DNA of 64,000 bases from Isoptericola halotolerans (GTDB taxonomy: Bacteria > Actinomycetota > Actinomycetes > Actinomycetales > Cellulomonadaceae): assembly GCF_013149785.1 (NCBI RefSeq), contig NZ_JABEZU010000003.1, forward strand, positions 434,001 through 498,000, given 5' to 3'. The notes beneath the pieces were generated by a model. That model was given only the letters and a program-made list of their open reading frames with translations, had not been told where the DNA came from and searched no databases. The translations under genes were made by a program, and so were the position numbers. Shown here in pieces: positions 2,841-41,603 of this stretch (the first letter of the stretch is position 1; each line of letters starts with the position of its first letter).

Positions 2841-4475
2841 TCACGTGTCGCCGCGCAGACCGGCCAGCAGCGCGGCCGCGTCCGGGCTGGCGTCCAGCAG
2901 CTCGCCGATGTGCGCGGCGGTACCGCGCAGCGGGTCCAGCATGGGCACCCGTTGCAGCGACGCAGCGCCCGGGACGTCGAAGATCACCGAGTCCCAGCTC
3001 GCCGCGGAGATCTCGTCCGGGAAACGCTCCATGACCTCCCCCCGGAACCATGCCCGGGTGTCGTGCGGCGGGTGGTGGACCGCTCGGGCGAGGTCGTCCT
3101 CGGACACCAGTCGTTCGACGGCTCCCGCCGCCAGGAGACGGTGGTAGACGCCACGCTCGGGCCGGACGTCGGACCACTGCAGGTCCATCGCGAGCAACCG
3201 CGGATGGTCCCAGGCCAGGCCGTCACGACGACGCAACCGGTCCAGCAGGCGTAGCTTGGCGACCCACTCGACCTCGCGGGCGCAGGACGACGGGTCCTGG
3301 CCCAGGCGTCCGATCACCGAGCGCCACCGCTCGACCACCGCGTCGGACTCGGCGTCGGTCCCGAGCGCCGCCAGCGAGCGGGCGGCCACGTCGAGGTAGC
3401 GGGCCTGGATCTCCAGCGCCGTCGCCGTCGACCCGTCCGCGAGCTCCAGGGGCACCGACAGGTCGAGGTCGCGCGAGACCCGGCGCACGTCGCCGACGGG
3501 GTCGGCGAGCCGGAGCGCCGCGAGCTCCGCGCGCGCCGGGACCCCGGCCTCGGCGAGGTCACCGAGGTGCTCGGCGACCCAGAGCACCAACGACGTGGTG
3601 CCGAGCTTGAGATAGGTCGCCACCTCGAGGTGGTTGGCGTCGCCGAGGATGAGGTGCAGCCGCCGCCAGCGGGTCCGGTCGGCGTGGGGCTCGTCGCGCG
3701 TGTTGACGATCGGCCTGCGCAGCGTGGTCTCGAGCCCGACCTCGGCCTCCATGTAGTCGGCTCGCTGGGAGAGCTGGAACCCTGCCTCGTCCCCCGTCGG
3801 GCCGAGACCGACACGCCCCGAGCCCGTGAAGACCTGGCGCGTGACCAGGAACGGGGTGAGCAGCTCGACGATGGTGCCGAACTCGAGCCTCCGGTCGACG
3901 AGGTAGTTCTCGTGGGTGCCGTAGCTGGCCCCCTTGCCGTCGGCGTTGTTCTTGTACAGCACGACCTCCGAGCCGGGCACCTGCGCGAGCCGGCGGGTCG
4001 CCGCGAGCATCACCCGCTCCCCGGCCACGTCCCACAGCACGCCGTCGCGCGGGTTCGTCACCTCGGGCGAGGAGTACTCCGGGTGCGCGTGGTCCACGTA
4101 GAGCCGCGCCCCGTTGGTGAGGATGCAGTTCGCGGCGCTCGGGTCGTCGTACTCCTCCGCCTCGGGACGCTCGATCCGTTCGGGGCCCGAGGGCCGGTCC
4201 ACCACCGGTCCCGAGGGGGCGGGCGACGTGGGGTCGTCGGTGAGCAACGACGGGTGAGCGGAGGCGCGCTGCAGGTGGAACCCCCGCGCGTCGGCCAGCG
4301 GGTCCTCGTCGTCGTAGTCCCAGCGCGCCGGCGGGTGCCCGGGCCGTCCACCCTGGACCGACGCGCGGTAGGTGGTGACCACCTGCGAGCTCATGAGCAT
4401 CGGGTTGGCCGTGGGCCGCCCCGGCGCCAGCACGCCGTACTCCGTCTCGATCCCCATCACGCGTCGCACCGTCAC
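2841..4475 (-). CDS. dop: depupylase/Pup deamidase Dop
   Basis: Dop converts the C-terminal Gln of Pup to Glu and also removes Pup from substrates. The 544-residue product starts MTVRRVMGIETEYGVLAPG and contains a long linker near residues 40-110 (the Dop loop region), which separates it from PafA. The glutamine-synthetase-like ATP-grasp motifs include GARLYVDHAHPEYSSPE, YKNNADGKGASYGTHENYLV and [13 protein letters not shown]. It is the first gene of the leftward proteasome operon; its promoter should lie in the 93 bp before the divergent phosphatase gene. Confidence 0.95.
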   Translation of the reverse strand: MTVRRVMGIETEYGVLAPGRPTANPMLMSSQVVTTYRASVQGGRPGHPPARWDYDDEDPLADARGFHLQRASAHPSLLTDDPTSPAPSGPVVDRPSGPERIERPEAEEYDDPSAANCILTNGARLYVDHAHPEYSSPEVTNPRDGVLWDVAGERVMLAATRRLAQVPGSEVVLYKNNADGKGASYGTHENYLVDRRLEFGTIVELLTPFLVTRQVFTGSGRVGLGPTGDEAGFQLSQRADYMEAEVGLETTLRRPIVNTRDEPHADRTRWRRLHLILGDANHLEVATYLKLGTTSLVLWVAEHLGDLAEAGVPARAELAALRLADPVGDVRRVSRDLDLSVPLELADGSTATALEIQARYLDVAARSLAALGTDAESDAVVERWRSVIGRLGQDPSSCAREVEWVAKLRLLDRLRRRDGLAWDHPRLLAMDLQWSDVRPERGVYHRLLAAGAVERLVSEDDLARAVHHPPHDTRAWFRGEVMERFPDEISAASWDSVIFDVPGAASLQRVPMLDPLRGTAAHIGELLDASPDAAALLAGLRGDT

Positions 4476-16117: not shown

Positions 16118-16408
16118 TCAGCGTCCGTCGTCGTCGTCCTCGTCGTCGTCGCTCTCGTCGTCGTCGCTCTCGTCGTCGTCGCTCTCGTCGTCGTCGTCCT
16201 CGTCATCGTCCTCGTCGAGGTAGAAGGGGGTGACCTCGGTGTACACCTGCGCCAGGGCGTCCTCGTACACCTCGAAGGCGTCGGCGAGCACCTCGTAGGC
16301 GTCGTCGACGGCGGGGTCCTCGTCGCCGCGGCGCGAGGACACCGCGTGGTAGTGGCCTTCGAGAGCAGCGACGAAGCGGTCCAACGCGGCACGCGGGTCT
16401 GCGGTCAT
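16118..16408 (-). CDS. small protein with poly-acidic repeat tail
   Basis: A 96-residue protein (ATG 16408, MTADPRAALDRFVAALEGH). Residues 1-70 form a predicted helical domain with DDAYEVLADAFEVYEDALAQVY; the last 25 or so residues are almost entirely Asp, Glu and Ser, encoded by 15-bp repeats. Related Cellulomonadaceae-type proteins are often labelled primosomal protein, but I see nothing that supports that name. The gene is divergent from the DUF5703 gene, 73 bp apart. Function unknown; the acidic tail may bind cations or basic proteins. Confidence 0.7.
   Translation of the reverse strand: MTADPRAALDRFVAALEGHYHAVSSRRGDEDPAVDDAYEVLADAFEVYEDALAQVYTEVTPFYLDEDDDEDDDDESDDDESDDDESDDDEDDDDGR
16126..16200. 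repeat. five 15-bp tandem repeats in the acidic tail
   Basis: Five consecutive 15-bp units of the form CGTCGTCGTCGYYCT; units at 16141, 16156 and 16171 are identical and the flanking two differ at two bases. On the minus strand each unit encodes Asp/Glu/Ser. The unit length keeps the frame, so unit gain or loss would change tail length only. Confidence 0.85.
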
Positions 16409-16481
16409 GCTCTGACGGTAGCGCCATGAGGGGCACAATGGGCACACGAAATCGCCGGACGGTCACCTGGGAGGCGAAGGC

Positions 16482-29861: not shown

Positions 29862-30506
29862 ATGAGCATCACCATCGACCCTGTCGCCACGGCAGGACTC
29901 GTCGCCCGCGAGGTCCGCAGCGGCGAGCGCGGTGGCGAACCCACCCGCATCACGGTCGCCCGACGCACCTACGCCGCTGAGCGTGACGACGTCTGGGACG
30001 CCGTCACCTCCGCGGAACGGCTCCCGCGCTGGTTCCTGCCCGTGGACGGCGACCTGGCACCCGGCGGGCGCTACCAGCTCGAGGGCAACGCGGGTGGCAC
30101 CATCGAGCGGTGCGAGGCACCCGAGTCGTTCTCCGTCACGTGGGAGTTCGGTGGCGGCACGTCCTGGGTGACGGTCACGCTGCGCCCGCACGACGCCGGC
30201 ACGCTCCTCGAGCTGGTCCACGAGTCACCGGTGCAGCCCGAGTTCTGGGAGCAGTACGGCCCGGGGGCCGGCGGCGTCGGCTGGGACCTCGCACTCATGG
30301 GCCTCGGTCTGCACCTCGCCACGGGGGCTGCCGGCGACCCGCGCGAGGCCGACGCCTGGAGCGTCTCGCCCGACGGCGTGGCATTCGTGCGAGCAGCGGC
30401 CACGGCGTGGGGCGAGGCGGCCGCCGCCGACGGGGACGACCCCGAGTCCGCGCGGGCGGCGGCCGAGCGCACCGTCGCCTTCTACACCACCGCACCCGAG
30501 GCGTGA
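29862..30506 (+). CDS. SRPBCC (AHSA1-like) domain protein
   Basis: Ligand-binding START/Bet v1-fold protein, 214 residues, of the Activator-of-Hsp90-ATPase-homologue family. It contains VARRTYAAERDDVWDAVTSAERLPRWFLPV, GGRYQLEGNAGGTI and VTVTLRPHDAGTLLELVHE, the classic AHSA1 pattern. In actinomycetes this type is usually paired with an ArsR regulator. Here the ArsR gene starts 1 bp after its stop. Role unknown; binding of a hydrophobic ligand is inferred. Confidence 0.87.
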   Translation: MSITIDPVATAGLVAREVRSGERGGEPTRITVARRTYAAERDDVWDAVTSAERLPRWFLPVDGDLAPGGRYQLEGNAGGTIERCEAPESFSVTWEFGGGTSWVTVTLRPHDAGTLLELVHESPVQPEFWEQYGPGAGGVGWDLALMGLGLHLATGAAGDPREADAWSVSPDGVAFVRAAATAWGEAAAADGDDPESARAAAERTVAFYTTAPEA

Positions 30507-30507
30507 G

Positions 30508-30984
30508 ATGACCCGACCGGCGTCGGACCCGGTCTTCGCCGCCCTCGGCGACCCGGTGCGCCGACGGCTGCTGGAGCTCGTGCACCGTGCCGGCGAGCAG
30601 CCCGCGGGCGCACTGGTCGACGCGCTGCGGTCCGAGCGCGACATCTCGCAGCCGGCGGTCTCCCAGCACCTGCGGGTGCTGCGGGAGGCCCGGCTGGTGC
30701 AGGCGCGTGCCGAAGGCACCCGGCGGCTGTACGCCGTCGATCCTGTCGGGATCGACGCCGCCCGGAGCTGGCTCGTCACCTTCGCCGACCCGTTCTCGCA
30801 GCCTCTCGACGCGCTGGACACCGAGCTCGCCCGCGGCCGCCGCGACCGCCGTCGTGCCGCTGCGGCGAGCGACTCGGGTGGCACCTCGAGTGACACAGCA
30901 GGGACCGCTCCGGTCAGCGGAAGTCCCTCGACCGGGTCGCTACCGGGAGGTGCAGCGGGGCGAGGTGCTCGGCGAGCAGGTTGA
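30508..30984 (+). CDS. ArsR family transcriptional regulator
   Basis: Winged-helix repressor. Residues 1-100 form the domain: DPVFAALGDPVRRRLLELV, then ISQPAVSQHLRVLREARLVQARAEGTRRLYAV (recognition helix and wing). No cysteine metal site is present, so it is not a classical metal sensor. The remaining 50 or so residues are low-complexity Ser/Gly/Arg and overlap the 3' end of dnaE2 on the other strand by 71 bp. Typical relatives end near residue 110-120, so the tail may have arisen by loss of an earlier stop. Confidence 0.85.
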   Translation: MTRPASDPVFAALGDPVRRRLLELVHRAGEQPAGALVDALRSERDISQPAVSQHLRVLREARLVQARAEGTRRLYAVDPVGIDAARSWLVTFADPFSQPLDALDTELARGRRDRRRAAAASDSGGTSSDTAGTAPVSGSPSTGSLPGGAAGRGARRAG

Positions 30985-33900
30985 CGGCGCCGTCGGACCG
31001 TTCCACCTGCCCGCGCACCACCATGGCCGCCGCTCCCCGGGCCACGGTCCGGAACCGTCGCCACAGCCCGGGGGTGCAGATGACGTTGAGCAGCCCGGTC
31101 TCGTCCTCCAGGGACAGGAACGTCACCCCGCCGGCAGTGCCGGGCCGCTGGCGGTGGGTGACGACCCCACCGACGGCGACGCGACGCCCCGGCTCGGTCC
31201 GCATGGCTGCTGCGACCGTGAGCACCCCCTGACGGTCCAGCCCGTCCCGCACGTGCTCCAGCGGGGAGGTCGAACCCGGGGTGATCCCGGTGGCCCAGGT
31301 GTCGGCGACGTCGATCTCGAGGGGGGTCATGCCCGGCAGCGCCGGGGCCGACACCCCGACACTGACCCCCTCGAGCGTGTCCGGCCCCTCCTGGCCGAGC
31401 GCACCCGCGGCCCACAGCCCCTCGCGCCGGGTCACCCCGAGCGAGGTCAGCGCGCCGGCGGTGGCGAGCGCCTCCAGGCGCGCGGTGGACAGCTCCACCC
31501 GGCGCACCAGGTCGCGCAGGTCCCTGAACGGTCCGTGGGTGTCCCGCTCGGCGACCACCCGTTCGGCGACGTCGGTGCCCAGTCCTCGCACGGCCGCCAG
31601 CCCGAGCCGCACCGCCAGCCGGGCGTCGACGTCGAGCGGTGTCGCCCCGCTGCCGAGCATGCCCTCCGCACCGTCGACCATGCCGTGAGCGCCCGTCCCG
31701 CCCTCCGGACGGGCGCTCACGGCATGGTCGGCCGGGAACACGCCGGCGAGCGCCGCCGAGGCGTTGACGTCCGGACCCAGCACCCGCACCCCGTGGCGAC
31801 GGGCGTCGGCCACCAGGGAAGCCGGGGAGTAGAACCCCATCGGCTGCGCGGCCAGCAGCCCCGCGAAGAACGCCTCGGGATGGTGCACCTTGAGCCACGA
31901 GCTGGCGTAGACCAGGAACGCGAAGGAGTACGCGTGCGACTCGGGGAAACCGAAGTCGGCGAACGCCTTGAGCTTGTCGTAGACCTCCTCGCGGACCTCG
32001 GGCGGCACCCCGCGCTCGGCCATCCCGGCGAACAGCCGCCCGCGCAGCGCCTCCATGCGTTCCACCGACCGTTTGGACCCCATGGCACGCCGGAGCTGGT
32101 CGGACTCGGCCGGGCTGAACCCCGCGACGTCGATCGCCATCTGCATGAGCTGCTCCTGGAACAGCGGCACCCCCAGGGTGCGCCGGAGCGACGGCTCCAG
32201 CAGGGGGTGCAGGTAGGTCACCTCCTGACGGCCCCGGGAGCGTTCGATGTACGGGTGCACGGAGTTCCCCTGGATCGGACCGGGCCGGATGAGGGCGACC
32301 TCGACGACGATGTCGTAGAACGTCCGGGGCCGCAGCCTCGGCAGGGTCGCCATCTGCGCACGGGACTCCACCTGGAACACCCCGACGGTGTCGGCCGTGC
32401 AGAGCAGGTCGTAGACCCTCGGGTCGTCCTGCGGCAGGGTGTGCAGCTCCAGCCGCTCCCCCGTGCGCTGCTCGACCGCCTCGAAGGCGTAGCGGATCGC
32501 CGTGAGCATGCCCAGGCCCAGCAGGTCGAACTTCACCAGGCCGGCGTCCGCGCAGTCCTCCTTGTCCCACTGCAGCACCGTGCGGCCCTCCATCCGGGCC
32601 CACTCGACCGGGCACACCTCGATGACGGGCCGGTCGCACATCACCATGCCCCCGGAGTGGATGCCCAGGTGCCTGGGAAGACGCAGCAGGCGCTCCGCGA
32701 GATCCAGCACGGGCGCCGGGATCTGCCCCTCCTGCTCGGCCGACGGCGGCACCTGCGCGGGCACGACGTCGTGGGAGTCGTCCGCCCGTCGCAGTCCGCC
32801 GTCCGGCCGGTCCTGGCCGGCGAGCGGGTCGACGACCCGGCCGGCCGCGGAGCCCCACTGGGCGGCCACCCGGGCCTTCTTCTCGTCCCGCCGGGTGACC
32901 GGCGCACCACCGGCCGCTCGGGCGTCACGAGCCGCCGCGTCCGCGGCCGGGCTGACCGGGTCAGGTCCCCGCAACGACCCCCAGCGCTCGATGGACTTGG
33001 ACCAGGCGTCCTGCTGCCCGACGTCGTACCCGAGCGCGCGGGCGGCGTCGCGCACCGCCGAGCGCGGCCGGTAGGAGATGACGTTGGCCACCTGCGCGGC
33101 GTGCGTGCGCCCGAACCGGGCGTAGACGTGCTGGATGACCTCCTCACGGCGCCCCGACTCGATGTCGATGTCGATGTCCGGGGGTCCGTCCCGCTCGGGG
33201 GCGAGGAACCGTTCGAACAGCAGGCCGTGATGCACGGCGTCGACGGCGGTGATCCCCAGGGCATAGCAGACCGCGGAGTTGGCGGCGCTCCCCCGCCCCT
33301 GGCACAGGATGCCCTCGCGCCGGCAGAACTCGACCAGGTCGTAGACCACGAGGAAGTACCCCGGGAAGTTCAGGTCGGTGATGACGCGCAGCTCGTGGTC
33401 GATCTGCGCCCACGCCTTCGGCTCCCGCCCCGTGCTGCCGGGCCCGGGGCGCGGGCCGTACCTCTCGGTGGCCCCGCGACGCACCAGCTCACGCAACCAG
33501 CTCGCCTCGTCGTGCCCCGACGGCACCGGGTACGGCGGCAGCTCAGGGGCCACCAGGTGCAGGTCGAACGCGCACTCGGCGGCGAGCTCGGCGGCCGTCG
33601 GCACCGACCGCGGGTGCCGGTGGTGCAGCCGGGCCATCTCCGCACCCGAGCGCAGGTGCGCGGTCGGGGCCCCGGGCAGCCAGCCGTCCTGGTCGTCGAG
33701 GGAGGACCGGGCCCGCACGGCCGCGAGCGCCCCGGCGAGGTCCGCGTCGCGCGGGCGGGCGTAGTGCGCGGCCGTGGTGGCCACCAGCGGCAGCCCGGCA
33801 TCTTGCGACAACGCGGCGAGCGCGGCGTGGCGGTCGGCGTCCCGGGGGTCGCCGGTGGCGGTGATCTCCACGGCGACGTTGTCGTGCCCGAAGACGGCGG

Positions 33901-34441
33901 CGAGCCGGTCGAGCTCGCGGCGCGCGGCGGACCACGGGTCGGGGCCAGCAGCTCCGACACCTCCTTCCAGGGCTCGCCGCACGGCCCCCTTGCGGCAGCC
34001 GGTGAGCACCAGCCACTGCCCGTCGGCCTCGGCCCCGAGACGGTCGAGGTCGTAGCGCGCCGCCCCCTTGACCCCGGCCTCGAGGTGGGCGGTGGCGATG
34101 GCGCGCGACAGGTTCCGGTAGCCGTCCGGGCCGCGGGCCAGCACGAGCAGGTGCGTGGCCCGCGGGTCCGGGACGCCGGTGGGTTCGTCGAGCACCGGCG
34201 CGCCGCCGGGCGTGGGGGCCGGCAGGTGCAGCTCGGCGCCGAACACGGTGGGCAGGCCGACGGCCCGCGCCGCCTCGGCGAAGCGGACGACGCCGTACAG
34301 CCCGTCGTGGTCGGTCAGGGCCAGGGCCTCCAGGCCGAGCCGGTCGGCCTCGGCGGCGAGCTCGGCCGGGTGGCTGGCGCCGTCGAGGAAGCTGAAGGCC
34401 GAGTGGGCGTGCAGCTCGGCGTACCGCTCCGTCTCAGTCAT
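30914..34441 (-). CDS. dnaE2: error-prone DNA polymerase DnaE2 (ImuC)
   Basis: Translesion C-family polymerase responsible, with ImuA and ImuB, for SOS mutagenesis. It is 1175 residues from ATG 34441 (TETERYAELHAHSAFSFLDGA, the PHP domain). Catalytic acidic residues lie in PPDIDIDIESGRREEV, and the region FKDL-equivalents LLGLGMLTAIRYAFE and ECTPGLW-like CTPGLWRRF are present; it ends SRDFR as the family does. Two regions look inserted: a charged Ala/Arg stretch around residues 480-560 and residues 904-930, which are encoded by a palindromic repeat. It overlaps imuB by 8 bp. Expected to be LexA-controlled from the box before imuA. Confidence 0.95.
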   Translation of the reverse strand: MTETERYAELHAHSAFSFLDGASHPAELAAEADRLGLEALALTDHDGLYGVVRFAEAARAVGLPTVFGAELHLPAPTPGGAPVLDEPTGVPDPRATHLLVLARGPDGYRNLSRAIATAHLEAGVKGAARYDLDRLGAEADGQWLVLTGCRKGAVRRALEGGVGAAGPDPWSAARRELDRLAAVFGHDNVAVEITATGDPRDADRHAALAALSQDAGLPLVATTAAHYARPRDADLAGALAAVRARSSLDDQDGWLPGAPTAHLRSGAEMARLHHRHPRSVPTAAELAAECAFDLHLVAPELPPYPVPSGHDEASWLRELVRRGATERYGPRPGPGSTGREPKAWAQIDHELRVITDLNFPGYFLVVYDLVEFCRREGILCQGRGSAANSAVCYALGITAVDAVHHGLLFERFLAPERDGPPDIDIDIESGRREEVIQHVYARFGRTHAAQVANVISYRPRSAVRDAARALGYDVGQQDAWSKSIERWGSLRGPDPVSPAADAAARDARAAGGAPVTRRDEKKARVAAQWGSAAGRVVDPLAGQDRPDGGLRRADDSHDVVPAQVPPSAEQEGQIPAPVLDLAERLLRLPRHLGIHSGGMVMCDRPVIEVCPVEWARMEGRTVLQWDKEDCADAGLVKFDLLGLGMLTAIRYAFEAVEQRTGERLELHTLPQDDPRVYDLLCTADTVGVFQVESRAQMATLPRLRPRTFYDIVVEVALIRPGPIQGNSVHPYIERSRGRQEVTYLHPLLEPSLRRTLGVPLFQEQLMQMAIDVAGFSPAESDQLRRAMGSKRSVERMEALRGRLFAGMAERGVPPEVREEVYDKLKAFADFGFPESHAYSFAFLVYASSWLKVHHPEAFFAGLLAAQPMGFYSPASLVADARRHGVRVLGPDVNASAALAGVFPADHAVSARPEGGTGAHGMVDGAEGMLGSGATPLDVDARLAVRLGLAAVRGLGTDVAERVVAERDTHGPFRDLRDLVRRVELSTARLEALATAGALTSLGVTRREGLWAAGALGQEGPDTLEGVSVGVSAPALPGMTPLEIDVADTWATGITPGSTSPLEHVRDGLDRQGVLTVAAAMRTEPGRRVAVGGVVTHRQRPGTAGGVTFLSLEDETGLLNVICTPGLWRRFRTVARGAAAMVVRGQVERSDGAVNLLAEHLAPLHLPVATRSRDFR
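31652..31733 (-). repeat. palindromic repeat element inside dnaE2 (copy 1)
   Basis: Perfect 24-bp arms (31675-31698 and 31707-31730) with an 8-nt loop, followed on the minus strand by 12 bases and then GCATGCTCGGC. The arms read CGACCATGCCGTGAGCGCCC from the outside. The element keeps the dnaE2 frame and encodes residues 904-930 (ADHAVSARPEGG and onward to GMLG). It shares design and sequence with the copies at 39582 and 40281. Confidence 0.8.
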
Positions 34442-36071
34442 AGACGGCCTCCACCTGCCAGGCCCCGGCGACCTGGGCCAGCAGCAGCCCGCGCCCGTCG
34501 TCGAGCACCGCCTGCAGGTGCACCCGTCGGGTGCCGCCGTCAGGGGCCCACCATCGTTCGGCGAGCGGCCACGGTCCGGCCCAGCCGACGACCGCGTGCT
34601 CGCCGTCGTCCCAGCGCACCCAGGCCGGGTCGCCGCTGCGGGCGAGGCGGGCGTCGACGACGACGTCATCACCGGTCGCGTCGAGCAGACGGGCGGCGGT
34701 GGGTTCGGGCAGCACGGTGGCCGGGGCCGGGCTGGGCAGGGCCCCCGGCCACGGCCGGTCGGGGGGCCGCTCGACCACGGCGTCCTCGCCGTAGGGCACG
34801 AGCCGGACGCGGCTGCGCGGGTCACGCCCGCCGGCCCGCCGGACGGCGAGCACCCCGTCGCCGCCGAGCAGACCTTGCACGCGGTCCAGGGCCTGGCGGG
34901 CCCGGGCGTCCTGCCCGGCGTCAGCGCCCCACAGGGCGGGCTGGTGCGTGCCGGCGGGGGCGACGTCCTCCGCGGCGAGCGCGAGATGGACCAGGGGTGC
35001 GACCTCGGGCGACCCGTCGGTCCCGGTACGCCGGCGCGCGCCGTCGGTCAGCCAGCCCTCGAGCTGCCAGCGCACCCGGTCGGTGATCCGTGCGGCGGGC
35101 AGCCCCCCGGCCGCAGTGTCGGTGCGCCAGAGCCGCTCCAGCTCGCCCTCGGTGGTGCGGGCGGTGATGCGCAGTCGTCCGCAGGCCACCCCGTGGGCGA
35201 CGAGCAGCGTGTGCAGCTCCTCGGCGAGCCGGCGGGCCGCGAACGCGGCGACGTCGACCCGGCCGGCGGGCGGGTCGAGCGCGGTGCCGACGGCCAGGTC
35301 GACCTCGGGGCGCCGTCGGGCGGGCGGACGCTCGTCCTCCCCACGGGCCAGGCGGTGCGCCCAGACGCCGAGGTCACCGAACCGGGCCGACACGCTCGCC
35401 GCGGGCAGGGCAGCCAGATCCCCGAGGGTGCGCAGCCCGAGGCGCCACCACAGCCCGACGGCGTCCCGGACGGCGGCGACCGCGCCCGGGTCGCACACGG
35501 CGTGCACGAGCTCGCCCACCGGGCGCCCGGCAAGGGCTGCTGCGGATCCTCCGGGAGGGACGACGGCGTCCTCGCGGGCCGCGAGCACCGCGGCGAGCAG
35601 GCCGTCGGCCACTCCCACCTGGCACTCGTGGCCCGCCTCGGCCGTCGCGGCGACGAGCCGTTCGGCCAGCACCCGCTCGGTGCCGTGGTACCTCGCCGCA
35701 CCCTCGGCGGGCAGGAGCAGCAGGCCGGGGCGGGCGACCTCGAGCCCGGCCACGACGGTCTCGGCCCCGGCCGCCACGGGCTCGAAGGCCCGGGCGTCGC
35801 GTTCGTCGTCGGCCTCCAGCAGGACCAGCCCGGGACATGCCTCCTGCGCCTGCCGGCGGCGCATGCCGCGGCGCACCCCGGCGCTGCGCGCGACGGCGGA
35901 GGTCGCGACGACGCTGCGCCCCGCCGTCGTCCCGCCACGCGACGGCGCACCGAGGACGGCGGCGGGCACGTGCGCGTCGAGGCCGGCCTCCGCGAGCGCG
36001 GCGACGACCGGCCAGTCCGGCACCCAGAGCACGGCGGTGCGGGTGCTCCGGGTGCTGCTCCGCGTGCTCAT
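34434..36071 (-). CDS. imuB: ImuB, Y-family polymerase-like SOS mutagenesis factor
   Basis: Catalytically inactive Y-family polymerase homologue that bridges DnaE2 and the beta clamp. It is 545 residues from ATG 36071. The start TAVLWVPDWPVVAA replaces the active-site DxD motif, and the segment VARPGLLLLPAEGAARYHG stands where active enzymes have an SxDE motif, so polymerase acidic residues are missing as expected. LADLAALP-like helix-hairpin-helix sequence (LRTLGDLAALPAASVSARFG) follows. It overlaps imuA (ATGA) and dnaE2 (8 bp), so the three are translationally coupled. Confidence 0.9.
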   Translation of the reverse strand: MSTRSSTRSTRTAVLWVPDWPVVAALAEAGLDAHVPAAVLGAPSRGGTTAGRSVVATSAVARSAGVRRGMRRRQAQEACPGLVLLEADDERDARAFEPVAAGAETVVAGLEVARPGLLLLPAEGAARYHGTERVLAERLVAATAEAGHECQVGVADGLLAAVLAAREDAVVPPGGSAAALAGRPVGELVHAVCDPGAVAAVRDAVGLWWRLGLRTLGDLAALPAASVSARFGDLGVWAHRLARGEDERPPARRRPEVDLAVGTALDPPAGRVDVAAFAARRLAEELHTLLVAHGVACGRLRITARTTEGELERLWRTDTAAGGLPAARITDRVRWQLEGWLTDGARRRTGTDGSPEVAPLVHLALAAEDVAPAGTHQPALWGADAGQDARARQALDRVQGLLGGDGVLAVRRAGGRDPRSRVRLVPYGEDAVVERPPDRPWPGALPSPAPATVLPEPTAARLLDATGDDVVVDARLARSGDPAWVRWDDGEHAVVGWAGPWPLAERWWAPDGGTRRVHLQAVLDDGRGLLLAQVAGAWQVEAVYD

Positions 36072-36934
36072 GCGACCCTCAGGTCGCGACCCACGGCGAG
36101 GCGTGGGCCGACATCCTCGGCCGGTGACGGGAGATCCCCGCAGACGGGCACCTCGACGTCGATCTCCACGGGCCGGGCCGCCGCGCCGCGCCCGGTACGC
36201 AGCACCGACAGGGTGCGCCGACGCAGCCACCCGGCACCGGCGTCGGCACCCGACCAGGCCCCGCCGCGGGCGTCGAGCACGACGTGCGCGCCGGGCCACC
36301 GCTCGGTGGTGACCAGGACGGCGTCGCGCTGACGGGTGCGGGCGGCGAGCCGCCGGCGGTCGACGTCGGCCAGCGCGGCCCGCGGCCCGACGACGAGCAC
36401 GTCCATGCCGTCGAGCAGCGCGGCGAGCACGGCGGGGGCGTCCGGGCCCGGGGCGGGGACGACGGCGGTGCGCTCCAGCGAGATGCCGACGTCGGCGGCG
36501 GCGAGCATCCCGACGGCGGGAGCCCCGACGAAGGCTACCCAGGCGCCGTCACGCGAGGCGGTGGCGAGCAGGGCGAGCAGCAGGCTCGTGGAGCCCTGCA
36601 CGGTGAGGATGCCGCCGCTCGGCAGCCCTCCGGGCAGCAGAGGGGCGAGGGCGGGGTGCACCGTACGTGCCGGGGTCTCCGCGGGGATCTCTGGCACCAC
36701 CCGCGTCTTCGGCGATTCGGTCCGTACCGTCCCGAGCGGTGGGCCGGCCGGCGCAGGGATGGCCGGCGCAGGGATGGCCGGCGCAGGGATGGCCGGCGCA
36801 GGGATGGCTGGCCGCATGCTGCGGGGCGGCTCCTGCTCCGCGGCGCGCAACGCGGCCAGCGCTCGCGAGTGCCGGTCGTCGTGGGCCGCCCGGGGCTCAC
36901 GCACCTCGGGACGGGTCCCGGGGACGACGCTCAT
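36068..36934 (-). CDS. imuA: ImuA-like (RecA-fold) SOS mutasome protein
   Basis: First gene of the mutasome operon, 288 residues. The C-terminal two thirds resemble a degenerate RecA/SulA-like fold: ALAPLLPGGLPSGGILTVQGSTSLLLALLATAS followed by WVAFVGAPAVGMLAAADVGISLERT (each shown in part) and MDVLVVGPRAAL. A Walker A lysine is not evident. The first third contains four PAIPA repeats encoded by 15-bp tandem DNA units. ATG 36934 lies 44 bp from the LexA box. Assigned mainly by position before imuB; the sequence itself is divergent. Confidence 0.8.
   Translation of the reverse strand: MSVVPGTRPEVREPRAAHDDRHSRALAALRAAEQEPPRSMRPAIPAPAIPAPAIPAPAIPAPAGPPLGTVRTESPKTRVVPEIPAETPARTVHPALAPLLPGGLPSGGILTVQGSTSLLLALLATASRDGAWVAFVGAPAVGMLAAADVGISLERTAVVPAPGPDAPAVLAALLDGMDVLVVGPRAALADVDRRRLAARTRQRDAVLVTTERWPGAHVVLDARGGAWSGADAGAGWLRRRTLSVLRTGRGAAARPVEIDVEVPVCGDLPSPAEDVGPRLAVGRDLRVA
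36746..36805. repeat. four 15-bp tandem repeats in imuA
   Basis: Four exact units of GGCCGGCGCAGGGAT, giving PAIPA repeats in a linker of the ImuA-like protein. Frame-preserving unit length. Confidence 0.9.
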
Positions 36935-36977
36935 GCGGCCCCCTCCCGGCGGTCGAGCAGTCGGTCGGACCGCATGT

Positions 36978-36993
36978 TCGAACACTTGTTCGA
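36978..36993. promoter_or_regulatory. LexA (SOS) box before imuA
   Basis: TCGAACACTTGTTCGA matches the actinobacterial SOS consensus TCGAAC-N4-GTTCGA exactly; the symmetry extends to ATGTTCGAAC on both sides. It is 44 bp upstream of imuA and predicts LexA repression of imuA-imuB-dnaE2. Confidence 0.92.
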
Positions 36994-37081
36994 ACATGGG
37001 TTCAGTACACGCTCGCCCGCGGCTCGTGTCAACCGCGCTGCTCAGCGCCTCGCAGCACCTGCGACGCCGTCCGTTTCCCTG

Positions 37082-37101
37082 CATACCGCGCGGTCGGTAT
37101 G
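37082..37101. promoter_or_regulatory. TetR-type operator 1
   Basis: CATACCGCGCGGTCGGTATG: half-sites CATACCG and CGGTATG separated by 6 bp. The right half overlaps a likely -10 (TATGCT, 37098-37103) for the MDR gene at 37136. It is the exact reverse complement of operator 2 at 45106. Confidence 0.75.
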
Positions 37102-37135
37102 CTAGGCGCACAGTCCACGACGAGGAGGTCGTACC

Positions 37136-38260
37136 GTGCAGATCACCGGCGCCGTGCTCGAACGCTGCGGGGCACCCGCACCCTGGGCCGACTCACGCCC
37201 GCTGACCGTCGGACCGCTCGAGCTCGACCCACCCGGCCCCGGCGAGATCGCCGTCCGCATCGAGGCCGCCGGGTTGTGCCACTCCGACCTGTCCGTCGTG
37301 GACGGCAACCGCGTGCGCCCCACCCCGATGCTGCTCGGCCACGAGGCCGCCGGCATCGTCGAGGCTGTCGGTGACGGCGTCCCTGACGACGCGGGGACCG
37401 ATGTCGGCACCCGCGTGGTCATGACCTTCCTCCCGCGCTGCGGGCGGTGCGAGGCCTGCGGCACCGACGGTCGCCTGCCCTGCTCGGTCGGGTCGGCGGC
37501 CAACGCGGCCGGCGAGCTCGTCGGCGGCGTGCGACGGCTGCACCGCGACGGCGCCGACGTCCACCACCACCTGGGCGTGAGCGCCTTCGCCACCCACGCC
37601 GTCGTGTCGGCCACGTCCGTGGTCCCCGTGCCCGACGACGTCCCCGCAGACGTCGCGGCGCTGCTCGGCTGCGCCGTGCTCACCGGCGGCGGAGCGGTGC
37701 TCAACGCGGGCCGGCCCGCCCCGGGCCAGGCGGTCACCGTCGTCGGGCTCGGGGGCGTCGGGATGGCCGCGCTGCTGGTCGCCCGGGCGCTCGGCCACGA
37801 GGTGATCGGCATCGACACGATGCCCGCCAAGCTCGACCTCGCCCATGAGCTCGGCGCCCGCGCTCTGACCCCTGCCGAGGCTCTCGACGCCGGTCTGCGC
37901 GCCCCCGTCGTGGTGGAGGCGGCCGGGAACGCACGAGCCTTCGAGACCGCCTACGCCCTCACCGCTCCCGGCGGGACGACCGTCACCGTCGGGCTGCCCG
38001 GGCCGGACGCGCGAGCGAGCATCTCCCCGCTGAGCCTCACCGCGGAGGCACGCACCGTCATCGGCTCCTACCTCGGCTCGGCCGTGCCGAGCCGCGACAT
38101 CCCCCGATACGTGGAACTCTGGCGAGCAGGACGCCTGCCGCTGGAACGACTCGTCTCGGCCCGCATCGGGCTGGACGAGCTGCCCCGCGCACTGGACCGC
38201 CTCGCCGCCGGCGAGGAGCTGCGCCAGCTGATCACCTTCGACGAGAGGAACCCCGCATGA
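37136..38260 (+). CDS. zinc-dependent alcohol dehydrogenase (MDR)
   Basis: Medium-chain dehydrogenase oxidising an alcohol to an aldehyde or ketone with NAD(P). It is 374 residues from GTG 37136, SD GAGGAGG at 7 bp. Catalytic zinc ligands are in GLCHSDLSVV and LLGHEAAGIV; the structural zinc cysteines are in PRCGRCEACGTDGRLPC. The Rossmann motif is VTVVGLGGVGMAALLVA. It closely resembles the class III-like enzymes found in acyl and alcohol catabolic clusters. The downstream SDR overlaps its stop (ATGA), and a MaoC gene follows; operator 1 controls this unit. Confidence 0.92.
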   Translation: MQITGAVLERCGAPAPWADSRPLTVGPLELDPPGPGEIAVRIEAAGLCHSDLSVVDGNRVRPTPMLLGHEAAGIVEAVGDGVPDDAGTDVGTRVVMTFLPRCGRCEACGTDGRLPCSVGSAANAAGELVGGVRRLHRDGADVHHHLGVSAFATHAVVSATSVVPVPDDVPADVAALLGCAVLTGGGAVLNAGRPAPGQAVTVVGLGGVGMAALLVARALGHEVIGIDTMPAKLDLAHELGARALTPAEALDAGLRAPVVVEAAGNARAFETAYALTAPGGTTVTVGLPGPDARASISPLSLTAEARTVIGSYLGSAVPSRDIPRYVELWRAGRLPLERLVSARIGLDELPRALDRLAAGEELRQLITFDERNPA

Positions 38261-39018
38261 CCAGCACCACCCCCCGCGTCGCCGTCGTCACCGGCGGCGC
38301 CCGCGGCATCGGCGCCGCGACCGCAGCCCGGCTCGCGGCCGACGGGCACGCCGTGGCCGTGCTCGACCTGCTCGAGGACGTCGCCGCCGAGACCGCCGCG
38401 AAGCTCACCGCGGACGGCCACCGCGCGATCGGCGTCGGCGTCGACGTCGCCGACGAGGAGTCCGTCACCGCCGCCGTCGGGCGCGTGGTCGCTGAGCTCG
38501 GTGCGCCGACCATCCTGGTCAACAACGCCGGCATCCTGCGCGACAACCTGCTGTTCAAGATGTCCACCGACGACTGGGACGCCGTGCTCGGCGTGCACCT
38601 GCGCGGGGCGTTCCTGGTCACCCGCGCCGTGCAGAAGCACATGATCGACGCCGGCTGGGGCCGGATCGTCAACCTGTCCAGCACCTCGGCGCTCGGCAAC
38701 CGCGGGCAGGCCAACTACGCCGCGGCCAAGGCCGGCATGCAGGGGTTCACCAAGACCCTCGCGATCGAGCTCGGCAAGTTCGGCGTCACCGCCAACGCCA
38801 TCGCGCCCGGGGTGATCGCCACCGACATGATCGCCGAGACCGCCGAGCGCGTCGGCGTCCCCCTGGAGGACTTCCTGGCGCACATGGCCAAGGAGGTCCC
38901 GGTGGGCCGCGTCGGACAGCCGCAGGACATCGCCGCCGCGGCGTCGTTCTTCTGCTCGGAGGAGGCGTCCTTCACCAGCGGCCAGGTGCTGTACGTCGCC
39001 GGTGGGCCGAAGGCGTGA
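38257..39018 (+). CDS. SDR family, 3-oxoacyl-(ACP/CoA) reductase type
   Basis: FabG-like short-chain dehydrogenase, 253 residues. It has TGGARGIGAATAARL, NNAGILRDNLLFKM, active site NLSSTSALGNRGQANYAAAKAG (Ser, Tyr, Lys; shown in part) and GQVLYVAGGPKA. The conserved ILRD following NNAG is typical of enzymes acting on 3-hydroxyacyl-CoA or ACP. Overlap with the MDR stop and a following MaoC hydratase suggest dehydrogenation and hydration of a CoA-linked substrate. Confidence 0.9.
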   Translation: MTSTTPRVAVVTGGARGIGAATAARLAADGHAVAVLDLLEDVAAETAAKLTADGHRAIGVGVDVADEESVTAAVGRVVAELGAPTILVNNAGILRDNLLFKMSTDDWDAVLGVHLRGAFLVTRAVQKHMIDAGWGRIVNLSSTSALGNRGQANYAAAKAGMQGFTKTLAIELGKFGVTANAIAPGVIATDMIAETAERVGVPLEDFLAHMAKEVPVGRVGQPQDIAAAASFFCSEEASFTSGQVLYVAGGPKA

Positions 39019-39103
39019 GCGCGGGGAGCCCCTGCCAAGGGACGCCGAGGAACGAGGTGTACCGCAGCGAGGCACCGCAGCGGTCACGCGAAAGGAGAAC
39101 GGC

Positions 39104-39565
39104 ATGAGCGGTGTCATCCGCGTCGAGAGCCCCGCAGCGCTTGCCGACGCCGTCGGGCAGCAGGCGACCGGCGAGTGGTTCACGATCGACCAGGACCGGA
39201 TCGCCGCGTTCGCCGACGCCACCGAGGACCACCAGTGGATCCACCTGGACACCGAACGCGCGAAGGAGGGACCGTTCGGCACGACGATCGCGCACGGCTT
39301 CCTCACGCTGTCGCTGCTGCCGCGCCTCACCGGCGAGCTGATCGAGGTCGGCGCCGTCGCGATGGCGGTCAACTACGGGCTGGACCGGGTCCGGTTCCTC
39401 ACACCGGTACCGTCCGGCGCCCGGGTACGCGCGACCACCGAGGTCACCGGGGCGGAGCCCACCGCCCAGGGCGTGCGGCTCGCCGCGACGGTGACCATCG
39501 AGATCGAGGGGGCCGGGAAGCCTGCGCTCGTCGCCGAGAGCCTGTCGCTGTACGTCCCGGCATAG
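39104..39565 (+). CDS. MaoC family (R)-enoyl-CoA hydratase
   Basis: Hot-dog-fold hydratase, 153 residues, ATG 39104 with SD AAAGGAG. The catalytic hydratase-2 motif is DATEDHQWIHLD, with Asp42 and His47, followed by GPFGTTIAHGFLTLSLLP. VNYGLDRVRFLTPVPSGARVR is conserved in the C-terminal half. It is the third gene of the MDR-SDR-MaoC operon, 85 bp after the SDR. Adds or removes water at a 2-enoyl-CoA. Confidence 0.92.
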   Translation: MSGVIRVESPAALADAVGQQATGEWFTIDQDRIAAFADATEDHQWIHLDTERAKEGPFGTTIAHGFLTLSLLPRLTGELIEVGAVAMAVNYGLDRVRFLTPVPSGARVRATTEVTGAEPTAQGVRLAATVTIEIEGAGKPALVAESLSLYVPA

Positions 39566-39581
39566 CCAGGCAGTCCCCCGC

Positions 39582-39660
39582 CGAGCATGCGATGGCGGCC
39601 CGTCAGGAACGCCTGACGGGCCGCCATCGCATGCTCGACCGTCCTGAGGGCATGGTCGAC
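39582..39660 (+). repeat. palindromic repeat element (copy 2)
   Basis: Perfect 26-bp arms (39582-39607 and 39612-39637) around AACG, outer end CGAGCATGCGATGGCGGCCC; a 12-bp spacer and GCATGGTCGAC follow. It sits 17 bp after the MaoC stop in a 226-bp intergenic region and could also terminate transcription. Confidence 0.85.
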
Positions 39661-39791
39661 ACGCTGATCGGGTCGACCCGGGGTCCCCGGTCGCTGCACG
39701 TCCCGCAGCCCTCACCCTGAGCGCCGAACGTACTCGGCGGTACACACGGCGTGGTCGGCGCCGCCCGACTCCTGTCCGGCAGGATGGCCTC

Positions 39792-40271
39792 ATGCCTGAT
39801 GCGACGTCGCAGCCCCGTTCCCGCGCCCAGCGCATCACCGACACGCTGGCCATGCTGCAGAGCCCGGCCCGGGACGCCTGGGTCGCCTCGGCGTCGTCGG
39901 ACGACGACGGCGCGGCGCACCCGTACCTGATCCCGCTGTCCCTGGTCTGGTGGGACGAGCGGATCCTGCTCGCGCTCCCGGCGGCGTCCCGCACAGCACG
40001 CAGCATCGCCGCCACGTCGACGACACGACTCGCCCTGGGGCACACCCGGGACGTGGTGCTGGTCGACGCCGTCGCCGAGCAGACCGTGCCCGTGGCGGAC
40101 GCGCCGGCGGACCTCGCCGAGGGATACGCCGACCAGGCCGACTGGGATCCGCGCAGCGATCCGGAGGGCTACGTCTACCTGGTCCTGCGGCCCCTGCGCA
40201 TCCAGGCGTGGCGTGAGGTGGACGAGATGCCCGGGCGGACCGTCATGCGCGACGGCGCGTGGGTCACCTGA
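39792..40271 (+). CDS. pyridoxamine-5'-phosphate-oxidase-like flavin/F420-binding protein
   Basis: Split-barrel protein of 159 residues. Typical segments are MLQSPARDAWVASASSDDDGAAHPYLIPLSLVWWDERILLALP (in parts, substrate/cofactor strand pair), TRLALGHTRDVVLVDA and the C-terminal YVYLVLRPLRIQAWREVDEMPGRTVMRDG region, which matches TIGR03618-like F420-dependent enzymes only loosely. Cofactor (FMN, F420 or heme) cannot be decided. It stands alone between two palindromic repeats. Confidence 0.78.
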   Translation: MPDATSQPRSRAQRITDTLAMLQSPARDAWVASASSDDDGAAHPYLIPLSLVWWDERILLALPAASRTARSIAATSTTRLALGHTRDVVLVDAVAEQTVPVADAPADLAEGYADQADWDPRSDPEGYVYLVLRPLRIQAWREVDEMPGRTVMRDGAWVT

Positions 40272-40280
40272 CCCCAGGTT

Positions 40281-40362
40281 CGCCGAGCATGCGATGAGGG
40301 CCCGTCCGGTGATCCGGACGGGCCCTCATCGCATGCTCGGCGGGGCAGACGGCATGGTCGGC
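40281..40362 (+). repeat. palindromic repeat element (copy 3)
   Basis: Perfect 29-bp arms (40281-40309 and 40314-40342) around TGAT, with inner sequence GAGCATGCGATGAGGGCCCG; then GCATGGTCGGCC after a short spacer. It fills the gap between the PNPOx-like gene and the converging thiolase gene and probably also acts as a terminator. Confidence 0.85.
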
Positions 40363-40379
40363 CGGGGCAGGGGCTGGGC

Positions 40380-41603
40380 TCAGAGCCGCTCGAGCACCAT
40401 CGCCATGCCCTGGCCACCGCCGACGCACATGGTCTCCAGTCCGTAGCGACCGCCGGTCGTCTCGAGCCCGTTGAGCAGCGTCGTGGTGATCCGAGCGCCG
40501 GTCATGCCGAACGGGTGCCCGACGGCGATGGCCCCGCCGTGCACGTTGAGCTTGTCCTCGTCGATGCCCAGCTCGCGGGCCGACGGGATCACCTGGGCGG
40601 CGAACGCCTCGTTGATCTCCACCAGGTCCATGTCCTCGATCGCCAGGCCCGCGCGATCGAGGGCCTGGCGGCTGGCCTCCACGGGGCCGAGCCCCATGAT
40701 CTCCGGGGACAGACCGGTGACACCGGTGGACACGATGCGGGCCAACGGCTGCAGACCGAGCTCGTCGACCACCCGGTCCGAGACGATGACGAGCGCCGCC
40801 GCGCCGTCGTTGAGCGGGCAGGCGTTGCCGGCCGTCACGGTGCCGTCGGGCCGGAACACCGGGTCGAGGCCGGCCAGCTTCTCGACGGTGGTGCCCGGGC
40901 GCGGGCCGTCGTCGGCGGCGACGACGGTGCCGTCCGGCAGCGTCACGGGCGTGATCTCGCGCGACCAGAAGCCGTCCGCGATCGCCTGCTCGGCACGCTG
41001 CTGGGAGCGGGCGGCGAACGCGTCCTGCTCGTCGCGGCCGATGCCGTGCACCGAGGCGAGGTTCTCCGCCGTCTGCCCCATGGCGATGTACGCGTCGGGG
41101 AGCTCGCCGTCGCCGCGCGGGTCGGCCCAGACCGGCGCTCCCCCGACGGCACGCTTGGCGGTGCGCTCCGTGGCCCCGGCGAACCGAGGGTTCTCCAGGT
41201 CCTGTCCCTCGATGTAGTCCGACGAGCCCTTGACCATACGGCTCACGGACTCGGCCCCGGCGGAGACGAAGACGTCACCCTCACCGGCCTTGATGGCGTG
41301 GAACGCCATGCGGGTGGACTGCACGCTGGACGAGCAGTAGCGCGTCACGGTGGTGCCGGGGACGCCGTCCAGCCCGAGCAGGACGGCGACGATCCGCCCC
41401 ATGTTCATCCCCTGCTCGCCGCCGGGCAGGCCGCAGCCGAGGATCAGGTCGTCGATACGGTCCGGGTCGAGGGCGGGCACCTTGGCGAGCGCCGCCTCGA
41501 CCATCTGCGCGGCGAGGTCGTCGGCGCGCATCTCGCGCAGCGATCCCTTGTAGGCCCGCCCGATCGGCGAACGGGCGGTGGCCACGATGTAGGCCTCGGT
41601 CAT
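40380..41603 (-). CDS. acetyl-CoA C-acyltransferase (thiolase)
   Basis: Degradative thiolase of 407 residues that cleaves 3-oxoacyl-CoA. The nucleophilic Cys90 is in VTRYCSSSVQSTRMA, the His motif in NVHGGAIAVGHPFGMTGAR, and the second Cys in ETMCVGGGQGMAM. The N-terminus MTEAYIVATARSPIGRAYKGSL is typical of FadA-like enzymes. It follows an acyl-CoA dehydrogenase gene by 49 bp in the same direction, so both probably belong to one beta-oxidation-like operon. Confidence 0.93.
   Translation of the reverse strand: MTEAYIVATARSPIGRAYKGSLREMRADDLAAQMVEAALAKVPALDPDRIDDLILGCGLPGGEQGMNMGRIVAVLLGLDGVPGTTVTRYCSSSVQSTRMAFHAIKAGEGDVFVSAGAESVSRMVKGSSDYIEGQDLENPRFAGATERTAKRAVGGAPVWADPRGDGELPDAYIAMGQTAENLASVHGIGRDEQDAFAARSQQRAEQAIADGFWSREITPVTLPDGTVVAADDGPRPGTTVEKLAGLDPVFRPDGTVTAGNACPLNDGAAALVIVSDRVVDELGLQPLARIVSTGVTGLSPEIMGLGPVEASRQALDRAGLAIEDMDLVEINEAFAAQVIPSARELGIDEDKLNVHGGAIAVGHPFGMTGARITTTLLNGLETTGGRYGLETMCVGGGQGMAMVLERL

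Follow-up and report, generated by a model that had tools for sequence, protein, structure and literature searches.

The dnaE2 gene of Isoptericola halotolerans contains, within its reading frame, an 81-bp palindromic unit that we consider likely to belong to a family of dispersed, non-autonomous palindromic repeats carried by this actinobacterial family, and to be present in the gene as a tolerated in-frame insertion. Nineteen copies with the same architecture are found in the genome, related copies interrupt several conserved genes without breaking their frames, and the DnaE2 loop that holds the unit varies widely in length among close relatives.

A palindromic unit in the reading frame of dnaE2

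Within the window, a stretch of 64,000 nucleotides, dnaE2 (30917-34441, minus strand) encodes an error-prone DNA polymerase of 1175 residues, identified by Pfam and by NCBIfam PRK05672.1 (1427.6 bits; cut-off 939). The unit lies on the minus strand at 31652-31732 (G000:C3:465652-465732, where G000 is the genome of the window) and scores 93.6 bits with a covariance model of the family. It corresponds exactly to codons 904-930 of the gene, which starts at 34441, with its first base at codon position 1, and encodes the residues ADHAVSARPEGGTGAHGMVDGAEGMLG. In the coding-strand reading, the 5' arm of a 24-bp inverted repeat (31707-31730) is followed by an 8-nt loop (CGCCCTCC, 31699-31706) and by the 3' arm (CGACCATGCCGTGAGCGCCCGTCC at 31675-31698), the two arms being perfectly complementary (24/24 bp). 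A third half-site (GCATGCTCG, 31654-31662) lies 12 nt past the hairpin, giving a 21-bp period. The minus-strand order from 31732 to 31652 is GCCGACCATGCCGTGAGCGCCCGTCC, the loop, the reverse complement of the arm, 12 bases and the half-site GGCATGCTCGGC. When folded as RNA, the minus strand of 31651-31731 yields -66.1 kcal/mol, with z = -8.64 relative to shuffles.

The first-pass annotation had described a perfect 24-bp inverted repeat with an 8-nt loop and trailing half-site, in frame within dnaE2 and present twice more as intergenic DNA nearby, and both observations hold. The two intergenic copies, on the plus strand, lie at 39580-39660 (99.4 bits), 14 nt past the preceding stop codon, and at 40282-40362 (98.6 bits), between convergent genes whose stop codons are 10 and 17 nt away. 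The pattern CATGCNRTG-N16-46-CAYNGCATG is found three times in the window, whereas shuffles predict 0.01 occurrences, so that a chance origin is excluded. The half-site GCATGSTCG is likewise enriched (13 occurrences against 1.99 expected), with nine of the 13 falling within the three units. A search of window positions 30000-41000 against Rfam gave no match. Loss of a gene in genome G012 by recombination between the two window copies was considered and rejected, the gene being unmatched in G009 and G005 as well.

Upstream of dnaE2, an ImuA'-like ORF of the DnaE2 mutagenesis cassette (36071-37111, minus strand) was identified by NCBIfam NF058630.1 (166.3 bits, cut-off 65). Two overlapping LexA-like boxes lie near its start at 36979-37004; judged against the box consensus, one is exact (CGAACACTTGTTCG) and the other has one mismatch (CGAACATGGGTTCA). 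These boxes would fit SOS control of the imuA-dnaE2 cassette, and the first part of the ORF may be a leader. The same ORF contains four 15-bp tandem repeats (36736-36812) that encode repeated Pro-Ala-Ile-Pro-Ala, and elsewhere in the window a small ORF (16118-16447) has an acidic tail of DDDES units, also derived from 15-bp tandem repeats. The half-site CGAACATGC resembles half of an SOS box. A role of the units as LexA sites was nevertheless rejected, CGAAC-N4-GTTCG being found in none of the 82 units described below. Also set aside was a function as uptake sequences, since few half-sites lie outside the units: four of 13 in the window, and 13 of 32 in the genome, where the control gave 11.

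A dispersed family and the placement of its copies

The covariance model was built from seven copies, in whose alignment 98.1% of stem cells are paired and six pairs have changed on both sides. Searching the whole genome, as the first-pass annotation had proposed, this model returned 19 solid copies of the same architecture in 3.97 Mb, two more of them in frame in a tatD-like gene. Being palindromic, each copy is matched on both strands; a match at C2:352040 (29 bits) and two weaker ones were left out of the 19. Family matches at E <= 1e-3 were found in 25 of 58 genomes, comprising 13 of 18 from the same genus, six of 18 others from the same family and six of 22 from the same order, although all of the same-order matches and those of several same-genus genomes are weak.

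From seven genomes we extracted a set of 82 copies (19 from G000, 17 from G024, 15 from G010, 11 from G009, 10 from G027, nine from G012 and one from G002), taking only the dnaE2 copy from G002, leaving the remaining genomes with matches unextracted and omitting the matches L216 (40.3 bits) and L248:1824 (31.6 bits). The length is exactly 81 bp in 50 of the 82. The consensus unit reads GCCGARCATGC-arm / loop / arm-GCATGYTCGGC / 12 nt / GCATGYTCGGC, with a stem of 23-24 bp, and its ends form terminal inverted repeats (GCCGARCATGC ... GCATGYTCGGC). For 46 of the 82 copies the nearest neighbour comes from the same genome, against 13.5 expected, and across the seven genomes the arm sequences are genus-specific, with differences in both halves of the stem. 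The third half-site of the G027 copies has changed together with their arms, which suggests that a single recogniser may serve all three half-sites.

Beyond these relatives, two scans of a named genome collection with strict patterns produced no match, although records near the window's genome may be absent from that collection. Plasmids, phages and viral contigs gave no match to one window copy or to two exact patterns. When DnaE2 was compared with plasmids by tblastn, Tsukamurella, Amycolatopsis, Kitasatospora and Streptomyces came top among the 800 records listed, all with less than 60% identity.

Most copies lie outside genes. The flanks of 69 of the 72 non-coding copies were read with a simple ORF rule; the other three (G000 491814, G009_g and G012_e), each covered by a candidate ORF, were for that reason not counted here, and each is readable in frame 0 (defined below) into the following gene. 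The copy L230, flagged by the codon rule in another frame, was kept as non-coding because the Pfam domains of its pullulanase-like gene start 117 residues after it. In 61 of the 69 cases a gene 3' end lies on the hairpin side, at a median distance of 17 nt (49 of the 61 within 40 nt), and a single copy lies between two 5' ends. Between tandem genes, 28 copies are arranged hairpin first and seven in reverse (p = 5e-4). Copies just 5' of genes, with frame 0 open with them, were also seen (L139 2001-2081, L233 1401-1475 and L212 1401-1481), and the GGCATG of units in this position may be the source of a start codon or of an N-terminal extension.

The region spanning a glmS-like gene, acpS and a luciferase-like gene (L136 1710-3509, L209, L219 and L251) holds several units in G000, G009 and G010. 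Units near acpS and the luciferase-like gene occur in another genus too (G027), and some intergenic copies may therefore be old and kept. Other long palindromes, with arms of at least 17 bp, are common: 400-kb samples of G000, G005 and G008 contain 24, 26 and 23, respectively, whereas three random sequences with the same dinucleotides contain 1, 0 and 0; a few of the G005 palindromes consist of G and C runs adjoining gaps. By eye, many of these palindromes appear to follow stop codons. Some recur in a single sample (GTTGTGAGCGGGCGTTTGGCCC and GCCGAGATAGAG in G005, CTCGCTGTGGGTGCACGACACGCC in G008), and further examples are found in L317-L336 (G005), L337-L356 (G008) and L357-L376 (G000).

Coding copies and the DnaE2 loop

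Ten of the 82 copies lie inside conserved genes: in dnaE2 of G000, G002, G009, G010, G012 and G024, twice in one tatD-like gene of G000, and in a mannitol-dehydrogenase-type gene and an S9 peptidase gene, both of G010. Pfam domains continue across the inserts in DnaE2 (HHH_6, 884-1007), Mannitol_dh, Peptidase_S9_N and the second TatD insert, and the first TatD insert lies just ahead of the Pfam-matched part. All ten coding copies have a length that is a multiple of three, compared with 43 of 72 non-coding copies. All ten also use the same frame of the element (frame 0, GCC-GAR-CAT) on whichever strand is coding, with three in the orientation of the gene and seven in the opposite one. Among the 144 strand readings of non-coding copies, frame 0 is open in 127 and the other two frames in 81 and 112, so that frame 0 makes up 0.397 of the open frames. 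Because the dnaE2 copies are not independent, the agreement in frame rests on about seven events, for which the chance of a shared frame is 0.397^7 = 0.0016. Cys and Trp together account for 1.4 of every 100 residues in the frame-0 peptide; the corresponding figures for the other two frames are 6.6 and 6.8. The agreement could reflect either selection on the peptide or a rule governing insertion phase. Base pairing in the stems is poorer in coding copies than in non-coding ones (one-sided p = 0.012), as expected if the reading frame alone is kept.

An eleventh coding palindrome, omitted from the set (L216 1401-1483 in G009; 83 nt as the model delimits it), lacks the third half-site and has arms (GAGCGTCTCTG) unlike those of the family. 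The ORF that contains it, whose glycosyltransferase domains follow the insert, reads it in a frame other than 0, which counts against a universal frame; the shared frame was seen in ten of these eleven. By eye, its arms resemble a palindrome near C1:9116 in the G000 sample, and we read L216 as a member of a second palindrome family that also enters genes.

The DnaE2 insertion site is a turn that comes after the fingers domain and early in the helix-hairpin-helix (HHH_6) region. Nine residues occupy this place in Taq polymerase III alpha (between 877 and 887), compared with 47 in this DnaE2 (between 896 and 944), and the stretch between DVNASxALAGV and LAVRLGL ranges from 7 to 59 residues in the 18 same-genus genomes. 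An alignment of DnaE2 from the closest relatives, which the first-pass annotation had suggested as a check, shows that G008, which is sister to this genome in the tree, has a 23-residue loop with no such palindrome; together with the 19 copies in the genome, this supports its view that the copy is an insertion tolerated by the protein. The covariance model scores the loop in six of the 18 same-genus genomes (G000, G002, G009, G010, G012 and, weakly at 26.4 bits, G017), with no copy at E <= 0.01 in the other 12, and in one of 18 genomes from other genera of the family (G024, 30.9 bits). In G004 (L119, about 2719-2808) and G005 (L108, about 4158-4247) the same loop holds a different palindrome, with the core SNDSVASLPRLSR and 93% identity between these two non-sister species; the examined loci of other genomes have none.

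The DnaE2 tree, from which the loop was excluded for the 18 same-genus rows and in which it was included for four outgroup rows, places G000 and G002, with copies in the same orientation, beside the pair G009/G012, with copies in the opposite one, the inner order of this clade being partly unresolved. G010 (same orientation) falls in another clade, where its sisters have no copy, and G024 (opposite orientation) belongs to another genus. On this topology, orientation alone would require two insertion events in dnaE2 and the simplest count would be four; alternatively, one old insertion may have been followed by losses and flips. The window copy is perfect (24/24), yet eroded copies occupy this place in G002 and possibly in G017; its perfection implies that it is young or has been refreshed by conversion. 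The bases after the unit are common to G002, G016 and G017, favouring an older insertion at this point.

This distribution bears on the suggestion of the first-pass annotation that the unit may alter the polymerase surface or the mRNA structure, and on whether the hairpin is regulatory and kept by selection, its RNA attenuating the SOS polymerase at the level of transcription or translation, or its 27-residue loop altering DnaE2 activity. Such a role might account for the occupation of one loop in six same-genus genomes (G017 weakly) and one other genome of the family and for a hairpin of -66 kcal/mol, and the main text of Di Nocera et al. (PMC3733652), which notes REPs within DnaE2 and repair genes in other bacteria, points the same way. 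We nonetheless find it quite improbable: 12 of the 18 same-genus genomes show no copy there at that threshold, and the variable loop length together with the poorer stems of coding copies argues against a conserved role.

A further alternative is that the hairpin in dnaE2 acts as a transcription terminator, with DnaE2 mostly truncated before its C-terminal 245 residues. The same unit is found 3' of genes with its hairpin first, and the dnaE2 copy has that orientation. This reading is very unlikely, however, given that the downstream frame is conserved and intact, that seven of ten coding copies have the opposite orientation, and that a consensus scan (blind to terminators without a T-run) matched no T-run terminator there.

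The two inserts in the tatD-like gene of G000 provide a second locus for comparison. TatD was readable in 16 of 18 same-genus sequences (all except G015 and G006) and, by eye, the other 15 are without the two inserts; G009 has a longer first site, possibly a relic. Across the 18 TatD loci, the two copies here score 71-73 bits with the covariance model and no score elsewhere exceeds 22.2 bits; a weak match in G002 (20.8 bits) falls at the first site.

How the copies spread was approached through their flanks and neighbours. Direct repeats of 4 nt flank two of the 72 non-coding copies (0.34 expected), and target-site duplications of 5 or 6 nt flank none of them; no exact empty site was found. 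Among 20 ORFs near clustered copies, scanned with Pfam, 15 are metabolic or housekeeping genes and five are without a domain, and no transposase was seen. A search of the genome for the terminal sites gave 32 matches, 19 in known copies and 13 outside, compared with 11 for a reversed-pattern control. The lack of a target duplication and of a mobiliser among these results would suit local terminator-like palindromes that do not move and are homogenised through gene conversion; the copy in dnaE2 would then be an old variable-loop palindrome overwritten by the prevalent sequence. The abundance of other long palindromes, and the different one in the same DnaE2 loop of G004 and G005, are also in keeping with this idea. 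We regard it as improbable, since tatD holds two copies that are missing from at least 14 of 15 readable relatives, and since DnaE2 copies occur in opposite orientations.

Our preferred explanation remains a mobile family with an occasional tolerated insertion. Its copies would ordinarily reside just 3' of stop codons with the hairpin facing the gene; there they most likely form a hairpin at the 3' end of the transcript, whether functional or simply tolerated, and such hairpins might work as terminators or stabilisers. The unit would be mobilised in trans by a protein factor, and from time to time a copy would enter a gene. Because it comprises 27 codons, has half-sites every 21 bp and usually has one frame open on both strands, a copy would be translatable as a short polar peptide either way, and insertions would survive where the host protein has a free loop. 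The dnaE2 copy probably adds a harmless loop of 27 translated residues to the polymerase. A stronger version, in which the geometry of the element (27 codons, half-sites every seven codons and a benign frame open on both strands) is adapted to life inside genes, with a repeated liking in several lineages for the loop of the SOS polymerase, where it may tune damage-induced mutagenesis, seems to us rather unlikely.

Relation to known palindromic repeats

The family shares several features with the GTAG and CGTC REPs, which, as the main text of PMC3733652 describes them, adjoin gene 3' ends between convergent or tandem genes and are in some cases intragenic; CGTC REPs are also without a dedicated transposase, as is the case here. 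That study (Di Nocera et al. 2013) reported REP-tagged DnaE2, excinuclease and other repair genes, and a palindrome in dnaE2 is therefore not unheard of; in this respect such insertions are less unprecedented than the first-pass annotation had supposed. The word Actinobacteria is absent from its main text. The family nevertheless differs from REPs in its stem, which is 23-24 bp long compared with the 5-13 or 8-9 bp given there, and in having a third half-site in place of an unpaired GTAG or CGTC end tag: in the copy alignment CGTC sits inside the stem and the ends read GCCGAR..YTCGGC. The Y1 (RAYT) transposase PF01797 was found in none of 36 same-family genomes and in two of 58 genomes overall, both from other families, with five of 14 controls positive. 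The long stem, the lack of a tag and the lack of a Y1 transposase in the 36 family genomes rule out a GTAG/CGTC REP/RAYT origin.

MITEs such as Correia/NEMIS, ERIC and YPAL are similarly short and non-autonomous, with terminal inverted repeats and open frames fused to genes, as summarised in PMC2229807; the family differs from them in showing no target-site duplication and perhaps in having no parent insertion sequence.

The closest likeness is to the Rickettsia palindromic elements (RPEs), from which events of this kind are best known. These are palindromic and dispersed, occur both between genes and in frame in unrelated genes, encode a conserved peptide and later decay, on the accounts in PMC2229807, PMC10969869 and PMC6649704. 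A guanylate kinase with such an in-frame insertion stays active (PMC2229807, PMC10969869), RPEs lose their repeat identity (PMC6649704), and R. conorii RPE-4 and RPE-6 have been equated with CGTC REPs in the main text of PMC3733652. The family described here shows in-frame insertion in unrelated conserved genes (dnaE2, tatD twice, the mannitol-dehydrogenase type and the S9 peptidase) and one conserved peptide frame in all ten coding copies of the set, the divergent L216 using another. The parallel drawn by the first-pass annotation accordingly stands for behaviour (entry in frame, one preferred frame, loop position and later decay), and we do not extend it to sequence kinship. The unit here belongs to another phylum, is GC-rich and 81 bp long, has a third half-site at a 21-bp period, and most of its copies that were read lie downstream of stop codons.

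Among the open-licence papers listed in our searches we found no actinobacterial case of such protein-coding palindromes. The mechanism, a tolerated palindromic insertion, is ordinary in principle; the repeat family and its lineage are those for which we found no report, and the data on frame and recurrence are unusually clean. They carry the caution that gene-end hairpins can turn into peptide sequence. The recurrence of copies in the same DnaE2 loop, together with the REPs reported earlier in DnaE2, raises the question of whether such genes are tolerant or preferred. As in the RPEs, a palindromic repeat lies in frame within protein genes, a behaviour that is now extended to an actinobacterial family, in which comparative data on gain, both orientations and decay allow the spread of short hairpin repeats, and their accommodation by proteins, to be studied.
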